Below, in pieces: positions 266 through 45,590 of a stretch of DNA of 52,698 bases (its first letter is position 1; the number at the start of each line of letters is the position of its first letter). The stretch comes from an uncultured Croceicoccus sp. (GTDB lineage: Bacteria; Pseudomonadota; Alphaproteobacteria; Sphingomonadales; Sphingomonadaceae), in NCBI RefSeq assembly GCF_947496385.1, contig NZ_CANMCP010000013.1:1-52698 (forward strand). The letters run 5' to 3'. A program made the translations under genes and the position numbers. The notes below the pieces were generated by a model, which saw only the letters and a list, made by a program, of their open reading frames with translations, was not told the origin of the DNA and did not search any database.

Positions 266-285
266 ATTAGAATGTGATTTCTAAT
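266..285. promoter_or_regulatory. Operator site 1 of the TTAGAA-N6-TTCTAA family (best copy)
   Basis: The site ATTAGAA-tgtgat-TTCTAAT is a perfect inverted repeat with 7-bp arms and a 6-bp spacer. It is the most symmetrical of about ten related sites in the window and defines the consensus. It sits upstream of the VOC gene on the minus strand, directly after the relic of a DHA2 transporter. A TetR-type repressor (42274-42969) is the likely binder; this is inference. Confidence 0.7.
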
Positions 286-309
286 TAAAGAACCGCCAAG
301 CGTCAATGC

Positions 310-910
310 CGCGCGCCGTGACGCTTTGCAAAAATCTCGGCCGAATTATCAGGGCGCATGTCACGCGAAAGGAATGCCAGGGCAATCGCGATCTTGGCGG
401 GCGCCGGCCCCACCGATCTCGCCTTCGTTCTGTCTCCGCCAACCGAATAATAGGCCGTACCGACGACGGCGATGCCGAGCAGCCGGGCGGTTTTTCCCGG
501 AGGATGGCAGAAGACGTGGAACGAGGACCCCGATGCCGACCATCACCCCTGCGCCGAAAGGAATAAGGACAAGAACAGTCTGAAGCGCACTCAGCCACAC
601 CCCCTGCTGTTGCTAGATGGCAAAAACGAGCAGGCATCCCATGCCGGCCATGGCGAAGCAGATTGCCGAGGGTACGCCCCCGCGGAACGTCTGGATGTCG
701 CAAAATGCAGGCTCGATAATGGCGTGGGAGCTCTATGCCCGGCCCCGCCGCGCGCGATCACAGCCAGAGACGACAATCGCAGATGACGCGATTTTTGCGT
801 ACCACGAAAGCGCCCAATACGCCGGGCTACGGGGCATTGAACAGCCCGCCGAAGCCCGCGGCGAAGATCAACGCGCCGACCGGATCGATGCGCAGATCGT
901 CAATCCTGAC
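310..910 (-). pseudogene. Decayed DHA2-family MFS transporter (paralogue of the intact gene at 28273-29745)
   Basis: Minus-strand reading in shifting frames recovers blocks of the intact transporter at 28273-29745. Near 835-905 one reads DPVGALIFAAGFGGL (intact: DPAGALIFASGFGGL). Near 630-700 one reads FRGGVPSAICFAMAGMGCLL. Near 535-600 one reads QQQGVWLSALQTVLVLIPF, then GAGVMVGIGVLVPRLLP (intact: SAGVMVGIGLLVPRLLP). These blocks are separated by stop codons (for example TAG just before QQQG) and frameshifts, and both ends of the protein are missing. It lies after the GMC gene, just as the intact paralogue neighbours the dead GMC copy of the second cluster. No product is expected. Confidence 0.8.
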
Positions 911-936
911 GCGCGAACAGCTGCATGCCCGAGAAC

Positions 937-970
937 CAGGGCCGCCGATCCCCACGAACCGGCGGCCCTG
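937..970. terminator. Hairpin between the MFS relic and the GMC gene
   Basis: Positions 937-947 and 960-970 form a perfect 11-bp GC-rich stem with a 12-nt loop, just after the GMC stop codon on the minus strand. The T-rich tail (TGTTTTAT) is on the plus side, so intrinsic termination is better supported for plus-strand transcripts. For the minus-strand operon it may act as a 3' stabilising hairpin. Confidence 0.5.
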
Positions 971-974
971 TGTT

Positions 975-2669
975 TTATATCAGGCCCTGCTTCAAAAGTC
1001 CGACCGCGTGGTCCGCCGCACGCGCAGTCAGCGCCATGTAGGTCAGCGAGGGATTCTGACACGCGGACGAGCTCATCTGCGCGCCGTCGGTCACGAACAG
1101 GTTGGGGATATCGTGCGCCTGGCTGAAACGGTTGAGCACGCTTGTCGCCGGATCCCAGCCCATGCGCGCCCCGCCCATTTCGTGGATCGCGCTTCCGCCC
1201 GCACCCGGACGGTCGAATCCCATGACGACATGCCCGCCCGCCTGGGTGAGCATCTGTGCCGCATCCTCTTTCGCCTGCGCGAGCGCGGCAAGCTCTTCCG
1301 CACCGAACGCAAAGTCGATCTTGAGCTGCGGAATGCCATGCGCATCGGTCTGCGTGGGGTGGAGCGTCAACCGGTTCGTCGCGCGCGGCACGCAATCCGC
1401 AAACGCCACCAGCACGACCTGCCACGGCCCGGGCGGTTGCAGCGATTCCTTGTACGCCGTGCCCACCCCGGCCTCGCGCTTGCCCCGGGTCCAGCCCGAT
1501 TGCAGCGCGCCGCCCTGATACGAGTAACCGCGGGTGTGGCCCACCCCGTCCATGTCGTCCATGTTGCGATACCGTGCGATCACCACGCCCGTCGGACGGT
1601 TGCCGAAGGTCGTCACGTTCTCGAACCCCGGCATGATCGCCATCGCCGAAAGCGTGCTGGCGTGGTCCATGATATGCGTGCCGAGAACTCCGCTCGAATT
1701 GGCGAGACCGTTCGGCATCGCCTCGTTCGCGGAATTGAGCATCAGGTGAACCGAGTTGAAGCTCCCGGCGTTGAGGAACACCATGCGCGCCGTGGCGCTC
1801 GTCCGGGTGCCATCCTTGCGATTGACCCAGCGCACGCCGGTCACGCGGCCCCGCGCCGCATCGTAATCGACGCGTTCGACCACCGCATCGGTGACGAGCG
1901 TAAGATTGCCGGTCGCCTGCGCCGCGGGCAGCGTGCTCGACTGCGTGGAGAAATACGCGCCATAGGAGCATCCGCGCGCGCAGATCGAACGCGCCTGACA
2001 CTGTCCCCGACCATTGATCGGCCGGGTGAGATTTGCGGTACGCCCGATGGTGAGCACGCGGTCGGACCAGCGCGAACGGATACGCTCGCGCGCGGCCTGC
2101 TCCACCGGGTTCAGATCCCACGGAGGCAGGAACTTGCCGTCGGGCAATTGCGGCAAGCCTTCCGCCGCGCCGGACACGCCGATGAATTCCTCCGCCTTGT
2201 CGTACCACGGGGCGAGATCGGCATAGCGCAACGGCCAGTCGGTGCCATTCCCGTCACGCTTGTTCGCGCCGAAATCGTAATCGGACCAGCGATAGCTCTG
2301 CCGCCCCCAGGTCAGCGAACGGCCACCGAGGTTATAGCTTCGGAACCAGTTGAAGTCGGTCGAGGCGCCCGTTTGATAGGGATTTTCGCGGTCGTTCACG
2401 AAGTGGTTTTCGGTGTATTCCGTGAAATGCCGGTTCAGCATCTGCACCGGGTGGTCGCGCGCCCACCGCTCGGCATCGCCGCTTCCGCGAAACGGCATTT
2501 CCCACGGCGTCTTCATCTCGGTTTCATAGCCGGTCTGGTGCGGGATGTCCTGCCCGCGCTCCAGCATCAACACCTTCAGCCCCGCCTCGGTCAGCTCCTT
2601 CGCCGCCCAGCCACCCGAAATTCCCGAGCCGACGACGATCGCGTCGAATTGCATGGCTTCACTCATCAT
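975..2669 (-). CDS. GMC-family FAD oxidoreductase, probable glycoside/sugar C3-dehydrogenase catalytic subunit
   Basis: This 564-residue protein has an N-terminal FAD-binding motif (VVGSGISG, about residues 12-19) and a C-terminal GMC domain with HEMGGARMG (His496) and QNPSL (Asn539), the usual catalytic pair. A cysteine cluster, CQARSICARGC (Cys224, 230, 234), resembles the [3Fe-4S] site of bacterial FAD glucose dehydrogenases. Its ATG overlaps the stop of the upstream gene by ATGA (2666-2669), so the two are translationally coupled. That partner resembles gluconate 2-dehydrogenase subunit 3, the exported chaperone-like subunit of such enzymes. Known relatives oxidise sugars or glycosides, often at C3, and pass electrons to a cytochrome; no cytochrome gene is present here. 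The exact substrate is not readable. Confidence 0.85.
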   Translation of the reverse strand: MMSEAMQFDAIVVGSGISGGWAAKELTEAGLKVLMLERGQDIPHQTGYETEMKTPWEMPFRGSGDAERWARDHPVQMLNRHFTEYTENHFVNDRENPYQTGASTDFNWFRSYNLGGRSLTWGRQSYRWSDYDFGANKRDGNGTDWPLRYADLAPWYDKAEEFIGVSGAAEGLPQLPDGKFLPPWDLNPVEQAARERIRSRWSDRVLTIGRTANLTRPINGRGQCQARSICARGCSYGAYFSTQSSTLPAAQATGNLTLVTDAVVERVDYDAARGRVTGVRWVNRKDGTRTSATARMVFLNAGSFNSVHLMLNSANEAMPNGLANSSGVLGTHIMDHASTLSAMAIMPGFENVTTFGNRPTGVVIARYRNMDDMDGVGHTRGYSYQGGALQSGWTRGKREAGVGTAYKESLQPPGPWQVVLVAFADCVPRATNRLTLHPTQTDAHGIPQLKIDFAFGAEELAALAQAKEDAAQMLTQAGGHVVMGFDRPGAGGSAIHEMGGARMGWDPATSVLNRFSQAHDIPNLFVTDGAQMSSSACQNPSLTYMALTARAADHAVGLLKQGLI

Positions 2670-3307
2670 CCAAACTCCACCGCAGTCCAGTCACTCGACC
2701 AGCTGCGCGTATCGGGGCCCATGGGAAGGGAAGAATCGTAGCGTCCCGGCACCAGCTCAAAACGCAACTCCTCCGATCCGCCGACCTGCGATGTGTAATA
2801 TCCGGTCAGGATCAACCCCTTCACCTTGCGCCAGGGATGCGTATCGTTCCCCTCGGCAAAGGCTTCCTTGTCGAGCTCGGTCAGGATGCGGATATGGTCG
2901 CGCGGCGAGCGGCGGACAAAATCGCCGTTCGCCCGGCGATCCAGCTCGTGCTCGAGCCAGCTCACGTAACGCAGGCTGCCGTCGCGCCGGCGATATTCCG
3001 GAAACGCCCACGGCATTTCGGCCGATCCCGCCGGTTCGCGCGTCCCGTCCAGCCCGTGCGCGAGCGCCAGGATAACGAAATCGCCGGTGCCGACCTCGCC
3101 CGCACCGGCCGTGTCCGTGCGGGGGAGCACGGCCTGGCTGACCTGCGTCATCATCGTGCGCTGACGCTCCGAAGGCGCGTCTTTCTCATCCAGGTCGGAC
3201 AATGAGACGGCGGCCACCGGAACCCCGATCGCGAGCGCGAGCAATGCCGCCCCGCCGAGAAAATCGCGACGGTCCCAGCCCGTCTTCTGCGTGCTCGTAT
3301 CAGTCAA
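2666..3307 (-). CDS. Gluconate 2-dehydrogenase subunit 3 family protein, Tat signal
   Basis: A 213-residue protein that starts with a twin-arginine motif (DRRDFLGG, residues 13-20) and a hydrophobic stretch to about residue 37. The rest, with PEYRRRDGSLRYVSWLEHE and RSPRDHIRILTELD, fits the gluconate 2-dehydrogenase subunit 3 family. In known complexes this small subunit carries the Tat signal and takes the folded FAD subunit to the periplasm. Its stop overlaps the start of the GMC gene, and its start overlaps the upstream isomerase by 8 bp, so the three are one operon. Assignment to the GMC partner follows from context. Confidence 0.8.
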   Translation of the reverse strand: MTDTSTQKTGWDRRDFLGGAALLALAIGVPVAAVSLSDLDEKDAPSERQRTMMTQVSQAVLPRTDTAGAGEVGTGDFVILALAHGLDGTREPAGSAEMPWAFPEYRRRDGSLRYVSWLEHELDRRANGDFVRRSPRDHIRILTELDKEAFAEGNDTHPWRKVKGLILTGYYTSQVGGSEELRFELVPGRYDSSLPMGPDTRSWSSDWTAVEFG

Positions 3308-4355
3308 TTCCCATGATCCGCTTGTTCAGGTCGCGATCCGCGCCGCCCTTGGCGAAATCGTCGAACGCATGCTCGGTGACCCGGATGATATGGTCGCGGA
3401 TGAAAGGCGCACCCTCTGCCGCACCCTGCTCCGGATGTTTGAGCGCGCATTCCCATTCGAGCACGGCCCAGCCATCGAAATCGTTCTCCGCCATCTTGGA
3501 GAAGATCGCCTTGAAATCGACTTGCCCGTCGCCGAGCGAACGGAACCGTCCCGCCCGGTCGACCCAGCTTTGATAGCCGCCATAGACACCCTGCCGCCCG
3601 GTCGGATTGAATTCGGCGTCCTTCACGTGGAAGCACCGGATCCGCTCGCGGTAGATGTCGATGAAATCGAGATAGTCGAGCTGCTGCAGCACGAAATGGC
3701 TCGGATCGTAGAGGATGTTTGCGCGCGAATGGCCTCCTACACGGTCGAGGAACATCTCGAACGTGATCCCGTCGTGCAGATCCTCGCCCGGATGGATTTC
3801 ATAGGCGACATCGACACCGTGCTCGTCAAAATGGTCGAGAATGGGGCGCCAGCGACGCGCCAGCTCCTCGAACGCATCCTCGACAAGGCCGGCGGGACGC
3901 TGCGGCCAGGGATAGAGATAGGGCCACGCCAGCGCGCCGGAAAAGGTCGCATGCCGGTCCAGCCCGAGCCGCTGGCTCACCACGGCGGCTTTCTTGACCT
4001 GATCGACGGCCCATTCCTGCCGCGCCTTGGGATTGCCGCGCACGTGCTCGGCGGCAAAACCGTCGAATGCCGCGTCATAGGCGGGATGCACCGCGACGAG
4101 CTGTCCTTGAAGATGCGTCGACAATTCGGTGATCGACAGGCCGTGCTGCTTCACCGTGCCCGCGATTTCGTCGCAATAATCCTTGCTTTCCGCCGCCTTG
4201 TCGAGGTCGAACAGCCGGGTTTCGAACGTGGGGATCTGCACCCCTTCGTAACCGAGGCCGGCCGCCCATTCGCAAATGGTGTCGAGCGAATTGAACGGCG
4301 CTGCGTCGCCCGCGAACTGCGCGAGGAAGATCGCCGGTCCCTTGATCGTTTTCAT
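3300..4355 (-). CDS. Sugar phosphate isomerase/epimerase family TIM-barrel protein
   Basis: A 351-residue AP-endonuclease-2-fold protein without a signal peptide. Visible blocks are GYEGVQIPTFETRLFD (about residues 35-50), VDVAYEIHPGEDLHDG (metal-ligand region, middle), NILYDPSHFVLQQLDY, RIRCFHVKDAEF and DGWAVLEWECALKHPE near the C terminus. The Glu, Asp and His residues at strand ends match the divalent-metal site of the family. Relatives in glycoside clusters isomerise, epimerise or cleave 3-keto sugars. It follows the Gfo/Idh/MocA gene after a 15-bp gap, and its 3' end overlaps the Tat-subunit gene. A role on 3-keto glycosides made by the GMC enzyme is an inference. Confidence 0.8.
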   Translation of the reverse strand: MKTIKGPAIFLAQFAGDAAPFNSLDTICEWAAGLGYEGVQIPTFETRLFDLDKAAESKDYCDEIAGTVKQHGLSITELSTHLQGQLVAVHPAYDAAFDGFAAEHVRGNPKARQEWAVDQVKKAAVVSQRLGLDRHATFSGALAWPYLYPWPQRPAGLVEDAFEELARRWRPILDHFDEHGVDVAYEIHPGEDLHDGITFEMFLDRVGGHSRANILYDPSHFVLQQLDYLDFIDIYRERIRCFHVKDAEFNPTGRQGVYGGYQSWVDRAGRFRSLGDGQVDFKAIFSKMAENDFDGWAVLEWECALKHPEQGAAEGAPFIRDHIIRVTEHAFDDFAKGGADRDLNKRIMGID

Positions 4356-4370
4356 GATGTCGTGTCCATT

Positions 4371-5486
4371 TCAGTCCGTGAGTTTCGCCCAGCCCGCACT
4401 CGCCGCGTTGGCGCGCACGCAGGTGTCGATGAATTGCATCGACCGCAGCCCATCCTCCAGCCCCGGCAGGAACGGAGCCTCTCCGCCGCGCAGGATCGTC
4501 GCGAAATCGCGGTAGAGATTGGCGAAGGATTCCAGATAGCCTTCGGGATGTCCGCCGGGAATCCGCGTCAGCCGCGTCGCTTCGGCGCCGAGCGTGGGGT
4601 CGCCCGCGCGCAACAGCTGCGTCGTCCCGTCGAGCTTGTGAAACAGGACGCTGTTCGGCGTTTCCTGATGCCAGACCATGCCGCCCGCCTCCCCGTAAAC
4701 GCGGATGCGCAGGCCGTTGAGCTCGCCGACCTCGATCTGGCTGGCGAGCAGCACGCCGCGCATCCCGCCTTCGAGGCGCAGAAGCACGGTGCAATCGTCA
4801 TCGAGCGCCCGGCCCGGAACCACCGCACCGAGATCGGGAAGAACCTCGGTCACCGCGCGGCCCGTCACGAATTCGGCGAGGTTGAACGCATGCACGCCAA
4901 TATCGCCGATGCACCCGCCGGCCCCCGCCTTGTCGGGATCGACCCGCCACTCGGCCTGCTTTCCCGTGGCCTCTCCGGCCAGCCACCCTTGCGGATATTC
5001 GACGACGACCTTCCTCAGCGCGCCGAGCGCGCCGGCGGCGATCCGCTCCCGCATCTCGCGGACCAGCGGATAGCCGGTGTAGGTGAAGGTCAGGCCATAG
5101 GGCAGCCCCGCATCGCGCACGGTTTCGGCCAGTTCGCGCGCCTCTGCCAGCGTGGCGGTCATCGGCTTGTCGCTCATGACCGGTATGCCGGCGCGCAGCG
5201 CCGCGCGCGCGGAGGGGAGATGGTTGTGATTGGGCGTCACGATCGACACGAAATCGATACCGTCGGCGCGCGCCTTTTCGGCGGCGAGCATGGTTTCAAG
5301 ATCGGGATAGCCGCGCGCGGGGTCGATGCCGTAGGTTTCGGCGGCCTCGCGGCTGCGGCCCGCATCGCTCGAAAAGGCGCCGGCGACCAGCTCGATCTCG
5401 CGGTCGAGTTCCGCCGCGATGCGGTGAACCGGGCCGATGAAGGCACCCGGCCCGCCACCTACCATGCCCATTCTGAGGCGTGTCAC
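4371..5486 (-). CDS. Gfo/Idh/MocA family NAD(P)-dependent sugar oxidoreductase
   Basis: I place the start at GTG 5486-5484, giving 371 residues (MTRLRMGMVGGGPG...). A GGGAGAG ribosome binding site precedes it at proper spacing. The ATG at 5507 would put the start directly against the operator at 5509-5526 with no ribosome site. The Rossmann motif MVGGGPGAF is at the N terminus. The catalytic DKPM lysine lies near residue 107, and GGCIGDIGVHAFN (Asp and His near residues 195 and 199) marks the sugar-binding half. Members of this family oxidise or reduce sugar ring hydroxyls; in glycoside operons they often interconvert 3-keto sugars. First gene of the 5486-to-975 operon. Confidence 0.85.
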   Translation of the reverse strand: MTRLRMGMVGGGPGAFIGPVHRIAAELDREIELVAGAFSSDAGRSREAAETYGIDPARGYPDLETMLAAEKARADGIDFVSIVTPNHNHLPSARAALRAGIPVMSDKPMTATLAEARELAETVRDAGLPYGLTFTYTGYPLVREMRERIAAGALGALRKVVVEYPQGWLAGEATGKQAEWRVDPDKAGAGGCIGDIGVHAFNLAEFVTGRAVTEVLPDLGAVVPGRALDDDCTVLLRLEGGMRGVLLASQIEVGELNGLRIRVYGEAGGMVWHQETPNSVLFHKLDGTTQLLRAGDPTLGAEATRLTRIPGGHPEGYLESFANLYRDFATILRGGEAPFLPGLEDGLRSMQFIDTCVRANAASAGWAKLTD

Positions 5487-5508
5487 TGAAATGCTCTCCC
5501 ATCCCATT

Positions 5509-5526
5509 TTGTAATGGCAGTTCTAT
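5509..5526. promoter_or_regulatory. Operator site 2, upstream of the Gfo/Idh/MocA operon
   Basis: TTGTAA-tggcag-TTCTAT matches the shared consensus TTAGAA-N6-TTCTAA at 10 of 12 arm positions. It lies 23 bp upstream of the GTG start of the oxidoreductase gene, so a bound repressor would sit on the transcription start region of the operon. Confidence 0.6.
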
Positions 5527-5633
5527 TTTGAATGCTGGGCAAAGGCAACCCCTGCCGCGCGGGGCGCGCACGCACGGTCGCGACCGCCCCGCACGGAAAC
5601 GCGCGCGGGTATCGCGGCCCGGAAAATGCATGA

Positions 5634-5659
5634 GGGGCGAAGCCGCAAGGCCCCGCCCC
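5634..5659 (-). terminator. Probable terminator of the GH3 gene
   Basis: Just after the GH3 stop (minus strand) there is an 11-bp GC-rich stem with two mismatches and a GCAA loop (634-644 pairs with 649-659). A short ATTTTCC tract follows on the minus strand. The hairpin separates GH3 from the next operon, which has its own operator. Confidence 0.45.
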
Positions 5660-5673
5660 CATGTCCGTTCCGG

Positions 5674-8061
5674 TCAGAGTCCCGGCGGCAATGCGCCGAT
5701 GTCGAGTGTCAGCGAAATGCCGTCGTCTTCTGCGTGACGCGCCACGCGAACCTTGCATTCGCCCTCGGGATAGCGCCAGCCATCGTCCTGCCACGATGCG
5801 AAGGCACGGCGCGTCAGCGGCACGGTCACCCGCCCTTCCTCACCGGGGTCGAGCATGATCTTGGCAAAACCGACCAATGCGGTCTCGGGCGCATCCCTGT
5901 AGACCTGGACGACCTCGCTGCCCGCGCGGTCGTGCGTGTTGGACAGACGCAGCGAGAGACCGCCATCCTCCGCCCGCGCATCGTGCCAGTCGAAGCGGGC
6001 ATAGCCCTGCCCCGCGCCGAGCGTGTGGCGCGCCCGCTTGCCCGCGCCGATGATGCCGCGATAGCCGACCCGCGTGCCGTCGTCATAGGCGAGCTTGCCA
6101 TCCGCGTCCGGCTGGAGCCCGAGCGCGGGATAATCCGCCTCGCTCTGCGCGATGGAGACGGGCATCCGGCCGCCCGGCTCGACATCGCCGGCCAGCACCG
6201 CGGCGATTGCATCGGCGAACCCTTCGCCCGGATACCACACGGCAAGATGGGCCGCGGCCCCGTCTTCCCAGCTCGCATCATAGGCATGGCCGACATTGGC
6301 GATGACCACCGTGCGCGGATTGGCCGCCGACACCCGCTCGATCAGCCGGAGCTGCAATTCGGGCAGCAGCGTATCCTTGCGGTCCTTGCTTTCGACCGAG
6401 CTGTCGGAGGTTTCGCCCACGAACAGGAACACCGTATCGGCCCGCGCCGCGGTGTCCTCCGCCTCGCTCAGCATTTGCTCCACGCTGCCCGGTTCGCGGA
6501 CGCCATACCAAAGCCCGTGGACGCGCGCGGCCTCGAACGGGAATTCGACGACGATTTCGACCGACTGCCCCTTTGTCAGGGTGACCGACGTGCTCTCGCT
6601 GTCCCCGGATTTCAGCACGCCCATCGTGTCGCCCGGCGGCGTTTCGGTGGTCGCCACGATTTCCTCGCCATCGACGAACATCCGGGCCTTGCCCGTCGCG
6701 CCGAGGTGGAACGCGTGCGCCCCGTCCTTCGCCGCGCGATAGATACCCGATGCGCGGATCGACCCGCCATTGGCGAAATCGGCCTGATCGTGCATGCCGG
6801 TGAACCAGACCAGCGAATTGGTATCGCGCGTTTCCCGGGTCATCGGCGTGCCGCTGCAATCGGACGACGCGAAATATTCGAGCGTCATGCCGCTCGTGCA
6901 GCCGTCGCCGATATCCTGCGCCGGGCTGACCGCCATGAACGGCAGGCGCGGCGCCGGATCGACACCGGGTGCGAACAGGACGGTAGCGTCCTTTTCATAC
7001 CGCGCACGGACCGTCTGCTCGGGCGTGGGGAGATCGGGCCGGACCGAAATCTTGGCAAAGGTGCCGCCCTGGAAACAGGGGGCGGCCGCATTCGGGCCGA
7101 TGATCGCGACGGTCCCGGCCTTCGCGGGGGCGAGCGGGAGGATATCGCCCTCGTTCTTGAGCAGGACGAAACCCGCCGCCGCCGCCTCGGCGAGAAGGCT
7201 ACGCGCCTCGGCATCGGTATAGGGGCGCGATTTTGCCCCCGTCGCATTTTTCGCGAGGCCGGCGACACGCGCGGCGGCATCGTCGACGCGCGATTGCGGC
7301 ACGTCGCCTGCGGCCACGGCCTCCGCCGCCTTCGGCCCGAGAAAGCGGAACGGGCCCGGCATCTCCAGATCGAGACCGGCGTTGAGCGTCGGCGCGGTCG
7401 AATGCGTCCCGAACCAGTCCGACATGATCGCCCCGCGGTAATTCCAGTCGCCCTTCACGATCTCGGTCATGACGTGATATTGTTCGGCGCAATAATCGCC
7501 GTTCACCCGGTTATAGGCGGCCAGCATCCCGAAACAGCCCGCATCGGCGGCATATTCGAACGGCAGCAGGTAGATTTCGCGCAAGGTGCGTTCATCGATC
7601 TGAATATCGACGGTGTCGCGCGCGGTCTCGCTATCGTTGCAGACCAGATGCTTGGCGACGGATGCGGTCCCGGTGGACTGCAACCCCGCGATCCAGCAGC
7701 CGCCGAGAATGCCGGTCAACAGCGGATCCTCGGAGAAATATTCGAACGCCCGCCCGGCAAGCGGGCTGCGCGCGAGGTTGATATTGGGGGCGAGCACCGC
7801 ATCGACCTCGCGCTCGACCGCTTCCTGCCCGACCAGCGCGCCGATGCGACGGACAAGATCACGGTCCCAGCTCGCGCCTAGCAAGGTGGCGCACGGGCTG
7901 AGCCGGGCAATATCACGCTCGTCCACCTTGCCGCTGGCGATGCCCATCGGGCCATCGCTCATCGCGAAGGCTACGATGTCGGCAGACGGCACCGCAACGC
8001 TCGACCACATCGTACCGCCGGCGGTGAGCGCGGCGGCATCTTCGAGTTTCAGATCAACCAT
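5674..8061 (-). CDS. GH3 family beta-glucosidase with PA14 insertion, cytoplasmic
   Basis: A 795-residue glycoside hydrolase family 3 enzyme. The (beta/alpha)8 domain carries the substrate motif AKHLVCND (Lys137, His138) and the nucleophile in AIMSDWFGTHS (Asp215). The second domain begins near residue 300 (GFVLLKNEGDILPL). A PA14-type insertion runs from about residue 395 to 535 (TLEYFASSDCSG ... ARMFVDGEEIV), and a fibronectin-III-like C-terminal domain follows (GSEVVQVYRD, DPGEEGRVTVPLT). PA14-containing GH3 enzymes are usually exo-acting beta-glucosidases with broad aglycone range. No signal peptide is visible, so glycosides must be imported first. The nearest operator is 404 bp upstream (8465-8482). 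A decayed piece of a related gene lies at 32190-32560. Confidence 0.92.
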   Translation of the reverse strand: MVDLKLEDAAALTAGGTMWSSVAVPSADIVAFAMSDGPMGIASGKVDERDIARLSPCATLLGASWDRDLVRRIGALVGQEAVEREVDAVLAPNINLARSPLAGRAFEYFSEDPLLTGILGGCWIAGLQSTGTASVAKHLVCNDSETARDTVDIQIDERTLREIYLLPFEYAADAGCFGMLAAYNRVNGDYCAEQYHVMTEIVKGDWNYRGAIMSDWFGTHSTAPTLNAGLDLEMPGPFRFLGPKAAEAVAAGDVPQSRVDDAAARVAGLAKNATGAKSRPYTDAEARSLLAEAAAAGFVLLKNEGDILPLAPAKAGTVAIIGPNAAAPCFQGGTFAKISVRPDLPTPEQTVRARYEKDATVLFAPGVDPAPRLPFMAVSPAQDIGDGCTSGMTLEYFASSDCSGTPMTRETRDTNSLVWFTGMHDQADFANGGSIRASGIYRAAKDGAHAFHLGATGKARMFVDGEEIVATTETPPGDTMGVLKSGDSESTSVTLTKGQSVEIVVEFPFEAARVHGLWYGVREPGSVEQMLSEAEDTAARADTVFLFVGETSDSSVESKDRKDTLLPELQLRLIERVSAANPRTVVIANVGHAYDASWEDGAAAHLAVWYPGEGFADAIAAVLAGDVEPGGRMPVSIAQSEADYPALGLQPDADGKLAYDDGTRVGYRGIIGAGKRARHTLGAGQGYARFDWHDARAEDGGLSLRLSNTHDRAGSEVVQVYRDAPETALVGFAKIMLDPGEEGRVTVPLTRRAFASWQDDGWRYPEGECKVRVARHAEDDGISLTLDIGALPPGL

Positions 8062-8464
8062 GTCGCGCTAAGGCTCCCATTACGTGTTGTTTGGTGTCCG
8101 TGGCCGTACGCACGAACGGAGGGTAGGACGCGCATTTGCACGCCGAAATTCATCGCAGGCTTCCCCGCCATCGACGCCGCCGTTGATGGGCGCGATGGTC
8201 GCCGCCGTCTCACCAAGGTTCCGGCGATCGGGATGGACCGGGTCCATTTCATCGATGTCGAGGACGGCATTTTCGAACAGGATGTCGATACGCGAAAGCA
8301 GGCGGCAGGGTCCATTTCACCCGCAAAGGTTTCATGCCGACAGGAATGACGGCTCACGCCCCGCTCGATCGCCATCGTTCACCCTCCCCGCGCGCCATGC
8401 GCAATGGCCGCGCTGTGTGCCGCATCGGAAACCTTGCGTGCACCGCGCATGCCACCATTCTTAA
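8062..8464. other. 400-bp leader or relic between operator 3 and the GH3 start
   Basis: No gene with recognisable family motifs was found. On the minus strand one frame stays open for about 70 codons (roughly 8100-8310) and reads ILFENAVLDIDEMDPVHP and NLGETAATIAPINGGVDGGE, which looks protein-like but matches no family I know and has no clear start. It could be a remnant of a gene deleted between the promoter and GH3, or a long untranslated leader. Confidence 0.35.
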
Positions 8465-8482
8465 TTAGAATTGGCATTCTAT
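8465..8482. promoter_or_regulatory. Operator site 3, upstream of the GH3 transcription unit
   Basis: TTAGAA-ttggca-TTCTAT matches 11 of 12 arm positions of the consensus. Its spacer begins TTGGC, as in site 4. It lies between the TonB-receptor stop and the GH3 gene, so GH3 is probably transcribed from here rather than only by read-through from the receptor. Confidence 0.7.
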
Positions 8483-8570
8483 ATAAAATTGACGGGCGGT
8501 CAAGCTGGCCACCGTCCGCCGTCCGGCAAAACCGGACGTCAGACAGCGTGCCATCGCGCCCCGCACGCAG

Positions 8571-8601
8571 ACGCGCGCCCTCCAGAAAGGAGCGCGCGCG
8601 T
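8571..8601 (-). terminator. Hairpin downstream of the TonB receptor
   Basis: A 13-bp stem with one mismatch (8571-8583 with 8589-8601) and a 5-nt loop lies about 80 bp after the receptor stop on the minus strand. No strong T tract follows, so this may be a weak terminator or an mRNA-stabilising element. Confidence 0.4.
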
Positions 8602-8679
8602 TGCAATCTCACGAAGGGTCGAAGCGGCTCCGATTGCCCTCGCAATGCCGCCTGCCCGAAGGAAGGCGACCTTCTGCGA

Positions 8680-38983: not shown

Positions 38984-39020
38984 CGCAGGGCGGGCTCCCC
39001 GCCGGAAGGAGCGCGCCGCC

Positions 39021-41010
39021 CTATGCATCGCAATTCGTAGCCGACGCGCACGCCATGAGCGCGCGGGGGCGCCGGGGCGCGAAATTGAACCTACCGTCCG
39101 GCCGGGCCGCAACGAAACTGGCGTAGGCGGACGGTTGCGAAGCCCCTCGGTTCCGAGCGAGACCCCGCATGCTACGGTTTTCGAAGGCTGGCTCGTATTT
39201 GAGACCAAGCTCGGTCCGAGAAAAAGAGCCCTGGCTGCTCGACTGTTGATTGAAGATGTCGAGGAAATAGGAGCTCTTGATCCGCGAACGGATGCCGGCC
39301 GAAATGACCCCGCTGTTGCCGATGTCGGATTTTGGGTCGGAACCGGCGGCAATGGTGAGCCGGACAGAGCGCGGAAGCGTGTTTCGAGAAAGATCGGGCT
39401 GAACCACCGCCGGTACCGGGTCCCGATCCGCCAGACCATTATCGCCCGGAGTGACCTCGAACGTACCCTCGACCTCAAGACCGTAGATCGTCGCGTCACC
39501 GGCGTTGAAAATCTGCTGCCCGATAGCCGGGTTCGGCAGAAGGGCCGCCTGCAGGTCGGTGTAGTCATGGTGAAACCAGCGAAAATTCCCGATAGGCTGA
39601 CCACGATCGACAACCGTCGATTTTGCACCCGCTTCATAAGCCGGTTTGGTCGCCGGTTCGTACGGCCCAACGCTGCCGAAACCTCCGGATTTGTAGCCGA
39701 TCGATACCTTGCCGGAGACGAGGGCATCGGCATTGGGTGTGTAATTCATGCCGGCCAGCCAGGGCAGCTGTTCGTTGTCATGTTCCAGATTGACAATCGG
39801 CGACGGGGACGTCGTTGGCGCGACGGGACCGGCAATGAAACGCAATCCGTAGTTTCCAAAAATCCCTTCCCGACGCTCGATCGCGGAGCGGAGACCGCCC
39901 ATGAGCGTCAGCTGATCACTTTGGATACATTCCGCCCGGCGAAAACCGGCGAAGCTGAGCGATTTGGTGGCAGGGGCGAATGCATTGATGAGGCTGGCGT
40001 TGGGCGCGATGAACGGGATGAGACTGCGAAGATTGTCGCCTTTCTCCTGATAGAAGAAGACGCCCGCCTGATAAGTGAATGCACTGTTGACGCCCCCGAT
40101 CCGCAGTTCATGGCCCATCGTGTCGACCGTGTTGTCGAATTCGCGGGAAGCGTCGTCCGATAGCGCGAGATCGGTATCCTGATCCGTGAAGCGATAACCG
40201 CCGAGATCAGTGACTGTCGCTCCACTCCCATCGCATTCGATCTCCCCACGGACCGCATAGCTATCCCGCAGCTTCGGCGTCGGCGGAGTCTGCGGAAGTG
40301 GAATGCACTGGCAGTCCGGGATCAGCGGTGCAGCGTCCACGAAGCCGTTTTTTGTACAATCCGGCCCGGGTTCGCGGCCGGCAACATTGAAGCTGTGCGA
40401 AGCGAAAGCGGGGACGTAGCTCTCGTCGTGCCCATACTCGCGTGAAAGATCGAACGAAAGACCATCGGGCAGCAGCAGCGCAATGGTCGCCCTCACCCCC
40501 CGATTGTCGACGGTCCCACTATGAACCACGTCCGCCCCCTGCAGCGGCGCGGTTGGGTCGGAGGAAAAACCCGTCGCGCGTGTTGTACACCCCCGCGAGG
40601 CGCAACCCGCCAACCCTGCCAAAAGAAATATCGATGCTGGCTTCCAGGTTGCGGGAATGCCAAATGCAGTAGGTCGCGCTGATGGCCCCGCCGAAAGTCG
40701 TACCCGGCTTGCGCACGGCAACCCGGGAATGACTACCGTCTTGCGTGGTCGAAACGGGGGCGACACGGGTAAAATTGCGAAAGGCGGTGATGCCGGCATC
40801 TTCGACGGCTTGGGCACCCACCACATTGATCGCGATCGGCACGTGCTGCACGTTCTCGGCATGATCTCGCGCCGTAATAACGATGGCATTCGTGGGTTCG
40901 GGATCGACCGGCGCGGGCTCGCGCCGCGCAATCTGCGCATGGGCCGGCATGCAAAGCACGGCCAGCGCACTTGCGAAAAAAAGAACGGTTTTGTGATTCT
41001 GAAACTTCAT
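39021..41010 (-). pseudogene. Decayed TonB-dependent receptor (copy of 8680-11004)
   Basis: The N terminus reads correctly in one frame: a signal peptide ending MPAHAQ, then NAIVITARDHAENVQHVPIA and VEDAGITAFRNFTRVAP. The plug core that follows in the intact copy (RGVGTN through GRNATGGAINFITR, about 90 residues) is deleted. The frame then changes, and the barrel continues openly with NGFVDAAPLIPDCQCIP, GGYRFTDQDTDLAL and KSSYFLDIFNQQSSSQGSF. The last residues are again frameshifted, so the essential C-terminal aromatic end is lost. It cannot make a working receptor. It is followed by the intact sulfatase operon, which may use the same promoter. Confidence 0.9.
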
Positions 41011-41050: not shown

Positions 41051-41068
41051 ATAGAACTAAAGCTCTAG
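41051..41068. promoter_or_regulatory. Operator site 8, upstream of the dead TonB receptor
   Basis: ATAGAA-ctaaag-CTCTAG matches nine of 12 arm positions. It lies 41 bp before the receptor start codon and may still control the intact sulfatase-to-ThuA operon downstream. Confidence 0.5.
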
Positions 41069-41084: not shown

Positions 41085-41640
41085 GTCAATGCCTGTCGCC
41101 GGACCGACGTAATCAATTGCGAATTGGCCAGCCATCGCGCCAGGCTGGCCGGCAGCAGGATCGGCCAGAACAGAGCCATAGGAAGCAAAATACGTCGGCT
41201 CGGAGGAATTGATCGCGAACCCCAAAGGTGCATTCCATCCATGTACGGCGCGCAAAGTCGCGACTGTCATCGCGCCGCTATCCTCGAAAATCAGGAAAGC
41301 TGCGGGACAGCCATCGAATGGGAGCCGCCCGTTCTCCCCGCAAATCTTTCGTCGCGTCGATCTTGTTCTTGATGAGGCCGGAGGCGCCGCCGTGATGGCT
41401 TGGTTACGCGGTCAGGATGCCATCGGCTTGGGGGACTGCCTCGACGAAGGCCAGTTCATCGTTGATCCGGTTTCGGGGCCAAGGCTTGTGATGGAGTTGC
41501 GGACATAAATGCTCACCGCCAAAGAGGCGGGTGCGCGCCATGCGATGTACATAGGTCCACGACCGACCTCATCAGCAGTTCGATAGACGAACCGGGCCGC
41601 TGTTTTCCGCCTATTGCGACAATACATGATCGTTGGCTTA
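41085..41640 (-). pseudogene. Decayed NADPH:FMN reductase (copy of 11084-11662)
   Basis: Minus-strand blocks in several frames match the intact reductase: IVAIGGKQRPGSSIELLMRS (intact IVGIGGTQRPRSSTELLVSS), DLCTSHGAH (DICASHGAH), and GAMTVATLRAVHGWNAPLGF then AINSSE near the C terminus (GGVTLAALRGIIHAMRGWPT, AINSIE). The flavin motif SPSYHGGVSG and its surroundings are frameshifted and shortened. Not functional. Confidence 0.87.
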
Positions 41641-41660
41641 TCATCGAAGCTCAGCGCATG

Positions 41661-42200
41661 TCACGTTTCGCAAACAGGACCGATCGTATGACCCCTTGCG
41701 CGCAGATTCTCCTCCATCGGCCGTCCGGTGAGAGTGCCACAGAGGATCTTCCCACTTCCGCGGTTTTCGCAAGACTTCGCCTGCTCCACCACCGGTTCCG
41801 GCGAACCGTACAGGCACCATGTGCAGATCCACTTTTCCGTAAGAGCATCGGAAGTATGCTCCGTTCGCCTGCTGACCTCTTCGCCTTTCGCCCGGGAGGT
41901 CGAATCCTGCAAGGCGCGCAGGATGACCTCAAGTGCCGCACAAATCTGCTCGCCGGTCTGCTCGCTATCTATGCAACGGCAGGTGTCGGTAGTCGAGAAA
42001 GACGCCCGGTCCATCATTGCAGCAAATATGGAGCTCCGGCTACCGACCGGCCTATCACCTTTGACGTGATAGCCGGGCATCAAGATCGGCTCGAACACGC
42101 AATCATGCGCCTTTTTGCGTGCTATTCGACACTTTTCGATCAGTTGCCAATCATCCTCCCGCTGAATTGCGCGTGCCTTCGAGAAAACGGCACACTGCAT
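41661..42200 (-). pseudogene. Internally deleted LLM monooxygenase (copy of 11662-12759)
   Basis: A 179-codon frame is still open, but the middle of the protein is gone. The start MQCAVFSKARAIQREDDWQL aligns with MRFSVFLNARAMRPEDDRKL. The end, with DALTEKWICTWCLYGSPEPV then ENRGSGKILCGTLTG, aligns with the intact C terminus. About 180 residues of the TIM barrel between the two are deleted in frame. The DHHF loop has become GYHVK. No catalytic product is expected, although the frame and the 48-bp spacing to the operator are kept. Confidence 0.88.
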
Positions 42201-42247
42201 CTTCCCGCACCTTGCGCGATTAAATTATAATTTCGGCTCGATACAAA

Positions 42248-42266
42248 TTGGAATTGACGTTTCTAT
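42248..42266. promoter_or_regulatory. Operator site 9, between the LLM relic and the TetR gene
   Basis: TTGGAA and TTCTAT arms match 10 of 12 positions but are separated by seven instead of six bases. It lies 48 bp upstream of the LLM relic and 8 bp before the TetR start codon, so it is placed for autoregulation of the repressor. A weaker half-like TTATAA occurs at 42225-42230. Confidence 0.55.
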
Positions 42267-42273
42267 TCGCTTA

Positions 42274-42969
42274 ATGCTTTCGGAAAAGATGCCAAGCGAA
42301 ACAAACAGTGCTTTTCCTGCGGTTGAAAAACTTCTCGAGGAGGCCATCCGCCGAAAGCCGCGACAGGGGCGCTCACTTGCGTCTTTCGAACGCATGCTGG
42401 AAGCGACTCGAGAACTGATGCTCGAGCGCGGAAGCGAAGACTTCACGCTTCAGGATGTGAGCGATCGCGGAAACGTCTCGATCGGCTCGATCTATCTGCG
42501 GTTTGAAAGCAAGGACCACCTGCTCTACGCAGTCATCGGACAGGAACTTCAGACGGTCGTGGAAACCGAAGCGGCGATGGTGCAGTCGATCGCTGCGGAA
42601 AGTGGCAGTCTCAAGGAGTTTCTGACGAAATATCTGGAGGCCTATATTGCCTTCATGGCCGAGCATTCGGCGATCCTGCGGGCCATCATGCAGCGCGCGG
42701 CGATTGATCCGGTGGTATCCCCATGCGGGAAGGAAGCGTGTCATAAGGCGCTATCGGAAACGGCGGATGTCATTCTGTCCTATCGAAACGAAATCCAGGG
42801 CAACGACCCGCGCGAAAAAGCCGAAGCTGTCCTGCACATGGTCTTCGCATCGGTCGCCCGGCAATTTGGTCTGGGCGCCTCGATCGAAGCGGGTGATCCC
42901 AAGATCTGGAAGAAACTGCGCCCCCAGCTGTCCGACATGGCCTACGCCTACCTGACCTATAAGGATTGA
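42274..42969 (+). CDS. TetR-family transcriptional regulator, candidate master of the shared operator
   Basis: A 231-residue TetR protein. After a charged N-terminal extension (residues 1-33), helices 1-3 include FERMLEATRELMLERGSEDF and the HTH FTLQDVSDRGNVSIGSIYLR followed by FESKDHLLYAV (about residues 57-87). The C-terminal ligand-binding half is helical and ends with AYLTYKD. The start ATG 42274 has no good ribosome site; the message could be leaderless, or ATG 42289 could be used. It is the only TetR gene in the window and operator 9 abuts it, while operators of this class occur across the whole catabolic region. Binding to them is a prediction. Confidence 0.85.
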   Translation: MLSEKMPSETNSAFPAVEKLLEEAIRRKPRQGRSLASFERMLEATRELMLERGSEDFTLQDVSDRGNVSIGSIYLRFESKDHLLYAVIGQELQTVVETEAAMVQSIAAESGSLKEFLTKYLEAYIAFMAEHSAILRAIMQRAAIDPVVSPCGKEACHKALSETADVILSYRNEIQGNDPREKAEAVLHMVFASVARQFGLGASIEAGDPKIWKKLRPQLSDMAYAYLTYKD

Positions 42970-43418
42970 ACCGGTCCCGCGCCGGCGTCTCGAAAACCGG
43001 TTCAGGATCCCGGTCGGGTCCTTCACTCGCAAATTTTCGATCCCGGGGAAGAGGCTCGCCGAATTAGCGCACCGGCCAGGATGGTCGATGCGGCGTGAGG
43101 TACGAGATCGATACGCCACCGCCTGCGCAATCTGTGTATCGTCACTTTGCGGGGAAAAAGAAACGCTCAAAGCATAGCGCCACAGTTGCGAACCCCGACC
43201 GGCGGCGTCATGCCTATTCCATCGACCCTGGCGGCGTCAGCGGGCGAAAGGCAATCGACCAGGCCTTTCGCGCGCAAACGTAGCGCAACACGTCATAGTG
43301 TGCAGGCCAGGACAAGTTCTCGCCCGAGGCCACCGAGGGTTAGCCAGGCCCGAACGACGCTCGCGAGGTCCGGGTCCGACTTTGCCATTTGCAATGTTCG
43401 AACGATCCGGTTCGCTCC
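42970..43418. other. Intergenic region with a possible unidentified relic
   Basis: About 450 bp between the TetR stop and the next gene. The minus strand can be read as SDPDLASVVRAWLTLGGLGR followed by ELVLACTL, then a stop, and RLRAKGLVDCLSPADAARVD. This looks like eroded protein, but I cannot name a family. No strong hairpin or operator was seen. Confidence 0.35.
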
Positions 43419-44342
43419 CTAGTCGTAGATCGGCCGCAACTCATTGTCGAGGTAATGGCGGGTGAGCGCCATCGATGCCAGCAAGTCGGGCGATCCGTCG
43501 TACTCGATCGACATCCAGCCCTTGAACTCGTGCTTCTTCAGCAGGCGATACAGGCCCTTCAGGTCCAGATTTCCAAGGCCCGGCTCCCAGAACCAGCGCT
43601 TGCCGTCATCCGTGATTTCGGGGTCCTGCGCATAGCGTACGCTATCGGGCTGCCCCGCCGATGCAGTGTCCTTGAGGTGGAACGTGCTGATGCGGTCGTG
43701 ATAGTCGTCGTAGAACGTGCAAAGATCCTCGCCCATGATCGCGATCTGCGCCGTGTCGATGCAATAATGGACCAGCTTTGGATCGGTCGATTCAATCAGC
43801 TCCCGGTGGTTCGGCAGATTGATCGCGCAGAAGAATTCGTTGTGCAGGCCGATCTTGATCCCATGATCGGTCGCATATGCACCAATCTCGTTCATGACCT
43901 TGGCGCATTGCTGCACCTCCTCTCGCGAGAGAGGTCCAGTGCCGCAGTAATTCTGCGTCGGGCAGGTGTTCATGTACTGACCGCCGAACTTGGCGATCGT
44001 GTCCACGGCCTCGCGCCCGGAACGAATGGCCTCATCGTAATGCGCCGGATCGTGCGAGGCGTGCGCACCGTGAAACATGCCGATCACCTCGACCCCTCGC
44101 TCCTTCGTGAACGCGGCAAAATCTTCGGCCGATCCGAACAGCGGAACAAGATCCGCCAGGTCCCATGGCGCGATTTCGATCCCGTCGAAGCCCAACGCAG
44201 ACTGATATTTCAGGATCGTGTCCCAATCCGAATAATAGGCCGTATTGGTCTTGTCTTCATAATAGAACTCACGGAAATTATTGATCTGCTTGTAGGGGAT
44301 CGTCTTCCAGTGGCTCATATTTGCGTAGCGGATATTGGGCAT
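43419..44342 (-). CDS. Sugar phosphate isomerase/epimerase family protein (307 aa)
   Basis: A TIM-barrel protein with GFDGIEIAPWDLADLVPLF near the N terminus, IKIGLHNEFFCAINLPNH (metal Glu), KLVHYCIDTAQIAIMGED (Asp and His-like ligand position), RISTFHLKDTASAG (His) and FKGWMSIEYDGSPD (Glu) near the end; the metal site looks complete. The WFWEPGLGNLDLKGLYRLL block and the size are similar to isomerase-like subunits of deglycosylating complexes that act on 3-keto glycosides. It is the second gene of a two-gene operon, 20 bp after the other isomerase. Function beyond the superfamily is inferred. Confidence 0.8.
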   Translation of the reverse strand: MPNIRYANMSHWKTIPYKQINNFREFYYEDKTNTAYYSDWDTILKYQSALGFDGIEIAPWDLADLVPLFGSAEDFAAFTKERGVEVIGMFHGAHASHDPAHYDEAIRSGREAVDTIAKFGGQYMNTCPTQNYCGTGPLSREEVQQCAKVMNEIGAYATDHGIKIGLHNEFFCAINLPNHRELIESTDPKLVHYCIDTAQIAIMGEDLCTFYDDYHDRISTFHLKDTASAGQPDSVRYAQDPEITDDGKRWFWEPGLGNLDLKGLYRLLKKHEFKGWMSIEYDGSPDLLASMALTRHYLDNELRPIYD

Positions 44343-44361
44343 CGCGGAATCTCCGTCCGTC

Positions 44362-45318
44362 TTATATCGACAATGTTTTGAGGAGGGCGCGGGTTCTCAG
44401 CAGGGCGCGGAACGGATCTCTCGTCTGGCGGGCGCTGCATATGACGGGCCCTTTGTAATCCATCCTGTCGAGCAAACCCGTGATCCCGGCCAGATCGACC
44501 GATCCCGTGCCCGGATCGCGGTAAACCTGCGTGGCCTGATCACTGGGAAACTCGGGATTCGGCGTTTTCCAGGTCTCGTCCTTGTCGACGAAATCGGTAT
44601 CGGTGAGGTGCACGGTCCCGATCCGGGTAATGTTGCTTTCGATAAAGCGCGCGGGCGAAATCCCCGCTACGAAAAGGCTCGCCGTATCGACGTCCAGCTT
44701 GACGCTGTCTTGCAGGGCGTCGGCTATGGGAATGATGCGCTCGCCCCCGAACAGGCTCCAGTATTCGTTCCGCAGAACGAGCGTGACACCAAGCTCACCC
44801 GCCTTTTCCGCAAGCGTACCCAGCATCTTGATCGTGCGCTCGGCAAACTCATCCATCCTGTTGTCGATGTCGGGATGGTATTGCGCGACGCGCCCGTAAT
44901 AGGCGGAGGGGCTGATGGCGAGATAGCGTGCGCCCATTTCGGCCGCATGGGAAAGCGCCTGGCTTCCGAAATGGCCCGTCGCGCCGAAGAAGAAGTCGAT
45001 CTGGTCGTTGCGCATGAAGAGGTTGGGATCGAACGTGAGGCCGGTGACTGCCTCGATGCCGTTCTCTTTCAGGAAAGCGCGATAATTGGCCGCGTTTTCG
45101 TATTTTGCATTCACGCAATATTCGTTGAACGGCACACCGGTCCGCCCGCCGAATTGCCACACCGGTTCGTAAGGCATCTCGATCGTCGAGAACCCCGCTG
45201 CGGCGATCAACGGATAGAGTTCTTCCCAGAAATACCGGCTTTCATAGCGGTTCCGGTTGGGTTCCTGGTAATGACGATTGATCAGATCGAGGCTTATCGC
45301 GATCGCTTCGCTATTCAT
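44362..45318 (-). CDS. Sugar phosphate isomerase/epimerase family protein (318 aa)
   Basis: A second TIM-barrel protein. Visible blocks are AAAGFSTIEMPYEPVWQFGG, GVTLVLRNEYWSLFGGE (metal Glu region), SVKLDVDTASLFVAGI (Asp), RIGTVHLTDTDFVDKDE (His) and YKGPVICSARQT. In the last block the usual glutamate is replaced (CSAR), so the metal site may be incomplete. It could therefore be a structural or regulatory partner of the adjacent 307-residue protein. I start at ATG 45318 after GAGGAG. Only a TTAGAA half-site (45462-45467) was noted upstream. Confidence 0.75.
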   Translation of the reverse strand: MNSEAIAISLDLINRHYQEPNRNRYESRYFWEELYPLIAAAGFSTIEMPYEPVWQFGGRTGVPFNEYCVNAKYENAANYRAFLKENGIEAVTGLTFDPNLFMRNDQIDFFFGATGHFGSQALSHAAEMGARYLAISPSAYYGRVAQYHPDIDNRMDEFAERTIKMLGTLAEKAGELGVTLVLRNEYWSLFGGERIIPIADALQDSVKLDVDTASLFVAGISPARFIESNITRIGTVHLTDTDFVDKDETWKTPNPEFPSDQATQVYRDPGTGSVDLAGITGLLDRMDYKGPVICSARQTRDPFRALLRTRALLKTLSI

Positions 45319-45572
45319 ATCGGGGACAGGCTCCTCAGGCGGCCGCATCGAAAAACCGCAGCCTAGGTTCGTCCGCGCGGTTATCGAGCAATCGGGCCGG
45401 CAGGCGGCCGGCCGTAATGCTGATACCGATTACTGTTTTGGTCGGACGAACCCACTCAAATTAGAAGACCCAATCCAATACGGCACGGTCCATCTGCTGT
45501 CAATCTCGGCATGTCCGATCCCGCGAGGCCCGATGGTGCCCGGCATTCGTCGTTTGCGAACGAACGTATTTT

Positions 45573-45590
45573 TTATAATAGCGGTTCTAA
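45573..45590. promoter_or_regulatory. Operator site 10, upstream of the xylulokinase operon
   Basis: TTATAA-tagcgg-TTCTAA matches 11 of 12 arm positions. It is 51 bp upstream of the xylulokinase start, bringing pentose metabolism under the same control as the glycoside genes. Confidence 0.65.

Follow-up and report, generated by a model that had tools for sequence, protein, structure and literature searches.

Predicted palindromic operators and a probable TetR-family regulator in a proposed aromatic glycoside regulon of an uncultured Croceicoccus

TetR regulons are already known as a kind, and a close described example is EdcR of Caenibius tardaugens, a TetR-family repressor of 17beta-estradiol genes (PMC8700777). 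We analyzed 52,698 nucleotides of DNA (hereafter the window) from an uncultured Croceicoccus sp. of the Sphingomonadaceae, contig NZ_CANMCP010000013.1, in which palindromes with the consensus TTAGAA-N6-TTCTAA lie before genes of predicted glycoside catabolism and beside a gene for a TetR-family protein. Judged by the available part of the EdcR paper, the two systems share a TetR-type regulator in a sphingomonad relative, divergently placed, a conserved palindrome over the -10 box, a weaker site at the regulator's own promoter, and an aromatic substrate (PMC8700777). They differ in that EdcR acts on four promoters in one cluster, against many scattered promoters here, and in the operator, TnnCnnTACnAnTnGTAnnGnnA by eye against TTAGAA-N6-TTCTAA; because of the operator, EdcR was rejected as the same system. 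PheR was rejected as well, since its footprint differs and its paper, in the part available, treats PheR with IclR-family regulators.

On the side of the substrate, C-glycoside deglycosidase systems have been described as Dgp/Dfg in gut bacteria and as CGD elsewhere (PMC8563793, available text). The likeness is that Gfo/Idh, a TIM-barrel alpha subunit and a CGDB beta subunit stand together in the islands of relatives of the window; the difference is that the islands here are those of sphingomonads and also hold TonB receptors, oxygenases and a predicted TetR operator. The available text of PMC8563793 has no word starting with "Sphingo" or "TonB", and its sole mention of "regulator" is in a reference title. 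The Fde/ifc flavonoid clusters (naringenin, isoflavones) direct a flavin monooxygenase and a glyoxalase-family dioxygenase at the A ring (PMC11069340, as far as its available part goes). These two resemble the luciferase-like monooxygenase (LLM) with FMN reductase and the VOC-family protein here, with the difference that our monooxygenase is luciferase-like with a separate reductase and that its role on the aglycone is a predicted one. A limited literature search turned up neither a transcription regulator nor an operator for C-glycoside catabolism in bacteria, nor any description of this regulon, and the available part of a paper on puerarin in soil yielded no regulator terms.

The ten palindromes of the window are real and shared, and are predicted operators. 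All ten inverted repeats in the preliminary description are present where it placed them, and an eleventh, at 45461-45478, had been missed. The sites are given below with their rank in the window under a matrix trained on other species; G036 is a related genome.

267-284: predicted operator TTAGAATGTGATTTCTAA, promoter of a VOC (extradiol-type) dioxygenase gene running off the left end; 0 mismatches; rank 2
5509-5526: predicted operator TTGTAATGGCAGTTCTAT, Gfo/Idh promoter; 3 mismatches; rank 8; half-sites the same in G036
8465-8482: predicted operator TTAGAATTGGCATTCTAT, on the GH3 side, about 400 bp upstream of its start; rank 1; G036 copy identical
11049-11066: predicted operator TTAGAATTGGCCTTCTAG, TonB promoter, with TTGAC (minus strand) 16 bp beyond; rank 3
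12807-12824: predicted operator TTAGAATTGAGGTTCTTA, LLM promoter; rank 4; G036 copy identical
29791-29808: predicted operator TTAAAATCATGCTTCTAT, between divergent MFS genes; rank 7; identical in G036, equivalent in G321
33798-33815: predicted operator TCAAAACTATAATTCTAT, between a broken deglycosidase alpha gene and DoxX; rank 9
41051-41068: predicted operator ATAGAACTAAAGCTCTAG, second TonB promoter; rank 5; G036 copy identical
42248-42266: drifted predicted operator, between tetR and a decayed LLM gene; rank 12; many relatives have a site before tetR
45461-45478: additional predicted operator TTAGAAGACCCAATCCAA, isomerase operon side; rank 10
45573-45590: predicted operator TTATAATAGCGGTTCTAA, xylB promoter; rank 6; G036 copy identical

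The consensus was compared with 100 shuffles and with 59 other palindromes having the same half-site letters. The window holds 15 matches with at most three mismatches, against a shuffle mean of 3.23 (largest 10; 0 of 100 shuffles reach 15), and nine of the 15 are claimed sites, 42248 not being among them. With at most one mismatch there are 5 matches, where the 59 permuted palindromes average 0.017, and with at most two there are 7, where they average 0.39; by this control the 6-bp spacing and both half-sites are specifically enriched. Furthermore, 26 distinct sites in other species' loci, none from the window, were used to train a 24-bp matrix (the match L033:3698, inside a gene, was excluded from training and kept in the count of promoter flanks). 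This matrix places the ten claimed sites at ranks 1-9 and 12 (scores 16.6-31.8; maximum in the reversed window 12.05). Rank 10 is the additional site and rank 11 an overlap of 33798. The earlier judgement that the repeats are unlikely to be due to chance is borne out by the one-mismatch counts and by the recovery of all ten with the cross-species matrix. Over eleven orthologous sites, half-sites are identical between G036 and the window at 128 of 132 positions, spacers at 60 of 66, and flanks at 1509 of 1760. Two of the four half-site differences fall in site 33798, which has three mismatches in the window vs one in its G036 orthologue, where the adjoining alpha gene is intact.

Individual sites recur in relatives. 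The half-sites of 267 are the same in G036, and a site preceding a VOC gene is also found in L016, G036 and G321; Gfo/Idh genes have a site of at most two mismatches at their start in seven of the eight Novosphingobium loci L031-L038; and site 45461 has a G036 orthologue with one mismatch and a two-mismatch site before the orthologous isomerase pair in G207. The 6-bp spacer reported for all sites except 42248 holds for nine; the 7-bp spacer of 42248 was rejected, since, compared by eye, its counterparts in relatives line up as TTAGAATTGACGTTCTTA with no indel, the copy in the window having drifted. The distance of 41-58 bp to a start codon reported for most sites is roughly right. Measured from in-frame start codons (for 41051, from the TonB match), the likely start is about 38-58 bp away at six of ten sites (5509, 11049, 12807, 33798, 41051, 45573), 34 bp at 29791, about 8-23 bp at 42248, about 190 bp at 267 and about 400 bp at 8465. 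The block at 13-28 kb, described as free of sites, has no match with at most three mismatches; the matrix finds one there, at 26812-26829 (ATGTAAGAAATTTTCTTG, rank 13, score 16.5, just below 42248), near an amine oxidase gene. This match is unchanged in G036.

The protein encoded at 42274-42966 matches the TetR_N helix-turn-helix family (PF00440, E = 2.8e-10, 40.2 bits vs a cut-off of 24). Its AlphaFold2 model (predicted local distance difference test, pLDDT, 90.9) has nine helices in an all-helical two-domain TetR fold, and Foldseek matches it best to TetR/AcrR and EthR proteins (E from 2e-5). Thirteen of the 21 helix-turn-helix columns F57-F77 are invariant among 31 sequences. A genome scan gave 16 loci with relatives of this TetR, typically in the order tetR, site, LLM, FMN reductase, site, TonB in Erythrobacteraceae and relatives, and tetR, site, Gfo/Idh, isomerase, site, TonB in Novosphingobium (gene calls in relatives come from a codon-usage script, with some genes missed or over-extended). 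A site of at most two mismatches lies between 400 bp upstream of tetR and its start in 22 of 40 tabulated loci, or 20 of the 36 distinct ones that are left when two duplicates and two short unrelated matches are removed (with L027 and L028 nearly identical). The 59 permuted palindromes average 0.49 of 40 in the same stretch, and the best of them, GAATTA, reaches 10, overlapping a conserved AATTAGAATT. A matrix score of at least 16 occurs within about 1.5 kb of tetR in 18 of the 21 orthologue loci L040-L060 (L042 and L044 duplicate training loci) vs one of eight distant TetR loci. A palindrome at the promoter of tetR itself is thus common among orthologues, and the window copy is the drifted 42248; the TetR probably regulates its own gene.

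Orthologues are carried by 22 of 397 family genomes (full-length matches of at least 36% identity; the next match drops from 3e-35 to 3e-14). In the 397-genome searches for tetR, CGDB and sites, at most 7-11 first-look candidates per genome were scored, and the genomes are related, so that cross-genome counts are not independent. The 22 tetR-bearing genomes contain 59 sites with at most one mismatch, spread over 18 of them; 41 of the 59 lie within 25 kb of tetR (expected about 1.1) and 52 within 62 kb (expected about 2.7), the radii of 25, 45 and 62 kb having been chosen after the sites were seen. The TetR at 42274-42966 is very probably the regulator of the sites, to judge from this distribution.

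The same clustering is visible in the genome of the window itself (3.34 Mb, 55 contigs, the window being the whole of contig C13). Genome-wide there are six matches with at most one mismatch: the window has five, and the sixth is close to the end of contig C7. The end of C7 is a second island, with a TetR 63% identical to that of the window, a TonB receptor 78% identical to the first TonB receptor of the window (TonB1), and MFS genes; two overlapping two-mismatch sites precede the receptor and a perfect site precedes a VOC gene cut by the contig end. The window starts inside a similar VOC gene. G036 has two VOC-hydrolase copies, identical over 2070 of 2070 bases compared, and such a repeat would explain the breaks of both contigs. 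Elsewhere in the genome, matches with two or three mismatches resemble background. Outside the islands, all seven of those with two mismatches are inside reading frames of at least 334 codons, which is weak proof of coding because long open reading frames (ORFs) on both strands are common in GC-rich DNA. A genome scan with the motif scattered at random or inside genes had been named as the outcome contradicting the proposal, and it was not found, the matches with at most one mismatch all being in the two islands. The proposal of a shared operator, a single regulon and the nearby TetR is likewise supported by conserved site positions, genome-wide clustering and co-occurrence over the 397 genomes. 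The extent of 45 kb holds for the window sites; with a second island and its own TetR on C7 the regulon is not limited to it.

The gene for CGDB (PF19906) goes with this tetR group, being found in 24 of the 397 genomes: 21 of 22 with tetR vs 3 of 375 without (Fisher P = 1e-30, kinship ignored). There are 38 CGDB genes in tetR-bearing genomes, of which 30 are within 25 kb of tetR and 16 have a site of at most one mismatch within 2 kb. Alpha and beta genes are intact beside orthologous sites in G036, G321 and G103. G321 retains an intact set of about 27 kb in the order tetR, site, LLM, FMN reductase, site, TonB, isomerase, MFS_2, DoxX, site, alpha, beta, GH3, site, Gfo/Idh, isomerase, G2DH3, GMC, MFS, site, MFS, site and VOC-hydrolase, followed by further ORFs and a second alpha-beta pair (alpha2-beta2). 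Its six matrix sites are at promoters of the same genes as in the window, which has in addition those of GH3, xylAB and an isomerase pair. The closest solved deglycosidase structures are 8qvc, 8qvd and 8umc, for which a literature search found no relevant paper. Both candidate families for sugar 3-oxidation, Gfo/Idh and GMC, are encoded in the window (Pfam). The VOC protein is related to extradiol dioxygenases, and beside tetR in L024 stand a hydrolase/carboxymuconolactone-decarboxylase fusion and a CoA transferase, which belong to the protocatechuate branch, and a PcaB-like protein just below its model cut-off. From this kinship and from the L024 genes we infer that the substrates are aromatic, flavonoid-like glycosides, and that the regulon is one derepressed by aromatic (flavonoid-type) C- and O-glycosides. 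The "glycoside" regulon first proposed is retained in this narrower form, with C- and O-glycosides of aromatic aglycones as the predicted substrates.

The position of the operators suggests how they would act. In 76 flanks of 38 distinct sites, GTCAA (TTGAC read on the opposite strand) occurs 22 times at 14-18 bp beyond the edge of the operator, 11 of the 22 at exactly 16 bp; ten further occurrences are at other distances up to 35 bp, and one control word gave 0. The near half of the operator (TAGAAN) falls at the expected -10 box, with 16 bp as the commonest distance to a TTGAC -35 box, which makes repression by occlusion the best-supported reading, and repression at these promoters is likely. 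We put a probability of about 0.82 on the explanation as a whole, namely that the palindromes are operators of the TetR at 42274-42966 and of its 63% identical C7 paralogue, with repression released by substrate. A TetR dimer on the operator would cover the -10 box and block RNA polymerase. A glycoside, an aglycone or a 3-keto intermediate, entering through the TonB receptor and MFS transporters, would bind TetR and make it leave the operator. Its release would switch on uptake; GMC or Gfo/Idh for 3-oxidation of the sugar; the C-glycoside deglycosidase and GH3 for cleavage of the bond; isomerases, ThuA and xylAB for disposal of the sugar; and, for attack on the aromatic aglycone, LLM with FMN reductase and the VOC dioxygenase.

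Somewhat better than even is the chance of the wider proposition that this TetR group is a dedicated sensor-regulator of aromatic C-glycoside catabolism in sphingomonads (uptake, sugar oxidation, C-C cleavage, ring attack), with an operator decaying together with the deglycosidase in two sister species and a divergent clade (G119, L039) using a 5-bp spacer. In that clade TTAGAA-N5-TTCTAA stands near tetR, with no mismatch at L115:13926 (G119) and one at L039:9733; co-evolution of protein and operator is possible. If true, the operator would be a marker for unknown members of the pathway, such as the LLM, DoxX and ThuA-like proteins, would provide sensors of plant C-glycosides with an inducible promoter, and would be an example of an operator decaying with the gene it serves.

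Several results count against a substrate-released TetR regulon of this kind. At three mismatches two permuted palindromes exceed the TTAGAA palindrome in the window (17 and 16 vs 15), where the motif is not special. Four of the ten claimed sites (5509, 33798, 41051 and 42248) are weak by consensus and indistinguishable by consensus alone because permuted palindromes outdo it at that level; the other six stand on consensus alone. Just upstream of tetR, 16 of the 36 distinct orthologue loci have no site of at most two mismatches: six of these have a three-mismatch site, eight (L045-L052) have 4-6 mismatches, and two (L039, L059) have a palindrome with a 5-bp spacer. Seven of the eight L045-L052 loci are one clade, and L045, L046, L047, L049 and L051 have a matrix site immediately downstream of the stop codon of tetR. 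Seven of the 59 sites are either on a different contig from tetR or over 62 kb away from it. G312 has tetR and no site in the 20 kb around it, no match of at most one mismatch genome-wide and no CGDB, being the sole tetR-bearing genome without CGDB. At least one match of at most one mismatch occurs in 123 of 375 genomes without tetR (141 of 397 less 18). Those with many such matches (G068 with 11, G233 with 13, G216 with 10) have the control pattern equally often; G004, G098 and G313 (one genus), G074 and G391 have two matches each vs 0 for the control, and a different regulator in these five may use a similar palindrome. In the window the deglycosidase alpha gene is broken beside site 33798 and there is no CGDB, and the substrate class is drawn from gene families only. 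CGDB genes occur elsewhere in this genome, at C20 15236-15571, adjoining an alpha-like ORF, and at C5 4255-4587.

Of the other explanations, it is very improbable that the palindromes are AT-rich promoter elements arisen by chance: TAGAAT does resemble a -10 box, and two control palindromes are commoner at three mismatches, but chance would give neither a fixed 6-bp spacing with both half-sites enriched, nor half-sites more conserved than their flanks (128/132 vs 1509/1760), nor a matrix that works across species and sites that cluster with tetR. Palindromes by themselves name no protein, and the sites might be operators of another regulator, such as the GntR/FCD protein at 48543-49199, which is about 3 kb from two sites and kept in G036 (95% identical). 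We consider this improbable, with GntR unsupported as the binder, because tblastn (1e-6) detects no relative of it in 23 of 24 relatives' stretches and one only in G036, whereas a TetR relative is present in all 16 scanned loci and in the islands of G321, G103, G112, G376, G207 and G352, and sites are close to tetR itself in most orthologue loci.

If TetR is the binder, it might act otherwise than as a simple repressor, or on other compounds. Some TetR proteins activate, and site placement varies, 267 and 8465 being far from start codons; yet in many promoters one half of the operator overlaps the place expected for the -10 box, the usual position for repression and the one reported for EdcR, and an activating or dual role seems unlikely. 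Less easily set aside, though still doubtful, is a regulon serving another glycosylated or aromatic substrate (O-glycosides, saponins, sulfated glycosides), with the deglycosidase as one member only. GH3, sulfatase and xylAB in the window, an alpha-L-rhamnosidase-like protein near tetR in L026 and three sulfatases beside tetR in G376 are consistent with it; the presence of CGDB in 21 of 22 tetR-bearing vs 3 of 375 other genomes argues against it.

Judged from sequence matches, much of the gene set is doubled in this genome, with one set decaying. The genes are as follows.

1-76, minus strand: start of a VOC-family dioxygenase gene cut by the contig end; 91% identity over 34 aa to the VOC ORF at the C7 end
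409-898, minus strand: remnant of a second DHA2-type MFS gene; tblastn 46-77%, two pieces, to MFS 28273-29757
975-2669, minus strand: GMC oxidoreductase (Pfam)
2666-3307, minus strand: gluconate 2-dehydrogenase subunit 3-like protein (Pfam)
3300-4355, minus strand: xylose isomerase-like TIM barrel (Pfam)
4371-5471, minus strand: Gfo/Idh/MocA oxidoreductase, start inferred (Pfam; in-frame starts)
5674-8061, minus strand: GH3 glycosidase (Pfam, NCBIfam)
8680-11004, minus strand: TonB-dependent receptor (Pfam)
11084-12016, minus strand: FMN reductase ORF, domain at residues 123-265, N-terminal part over-extended (Pfam)
11662-12759, minus strand: LLM, start inferred (Pfam; in-frame starts)
28273-29757, minus strand: MFS transporter (Pfam MFS_1), which we take to be of the DHA2 type
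29892-31148, plus strand: MFS transporter, start inferred (Pfam; in-frame starts)
31225-32673, minus strand: remnants of a second GMC (31225-32058) and GH3 (32232-32673); broken tblastn matches
32735-33737, minus strand: broken copy of the C-glycoside deglycosidase alpha subunit; 39-56% pieces in overlapping shifted frames
33867-34292, plus strand: DoxX-like protein (Pfam)
34444-37599, minus strand: ThuA, MFS_2 and TIM-barrel isomerase genes (Pfam)
37601-39733, minus strand: sulfatase ORF, domain at residues 283-597 (Pfam)
39021-41010, minus strand: second TonB receptor, frame interrupted near 40600; two overlapping frames match TonB1
41103-42284, minus strand: decayed second FMN reductase and LLM copies; tblastn pieces 36-47%
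42274-42966, plus strand: TetR-family regulator, proposed binder of all sites (TetR_N, Pfam)
43419-45348, minus strand: two TIM-barrel sugar isomerase-like genes (Pfam)
45642-48413, plus strand: xylulokinase (xylB) and xylose isomerase (xylA); NCBIfam equivalogs TIGR01312 and TIGR02630 above cut-off
48543-49199: GntR/FCD protein adjoining xylAB (Pfam/NCBIfam)

A FAD monooxygenase and a GH39 protein are also named in the window (Pfam/NCBIfam). In G036, whose TetR is 94% identical, deglycosidase alpha, beta (CGDB) and the second TonB receptor (774 aa) are intact, and the intact VOC orthologue belongs to the Glyoxalase/dioxygenase family (phmmer 1e-155 to 3b59). The sites were said to front TonB, GH3, Gfo/Idh, LLM, MFS, DoxX-like, TetR and xylB genes, which agrees with the two lists, with the correction that 33798, 41051 and 42248 each have a decayed gene on one side. 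The ten sites were not treated as equal: six are stronger and four weak, the fourth weak one, 5509, not fronting a decayed gene.

An ORF of 108 codons at 8049-8375 (minus strand), with no Pfam match, lies between site 8465 and GH3 and overlaps the GH3 start; it could be a small gene or a leader. A LysR-type gene stands beside tetR at L026:10701-11630, L029:11744-12652 and L030:11702-12610 and may encode a second sensor; it was not used, its best NCBIfam models (BsrA, LeuO) being below cut-off and its best match in the genome of the window 40% identical and on another contig. The three sulfatase genes beside tetR in G376 are at L114:14579-19901, one or two of them at a site, which suggests sulfated substrates in some species. 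On contig C1 of G036, about 4500-11000 and 3339000-3346500, there are two similar GH3-TonB-LLM copies with identical sites, the first with several short or broken ORFs.

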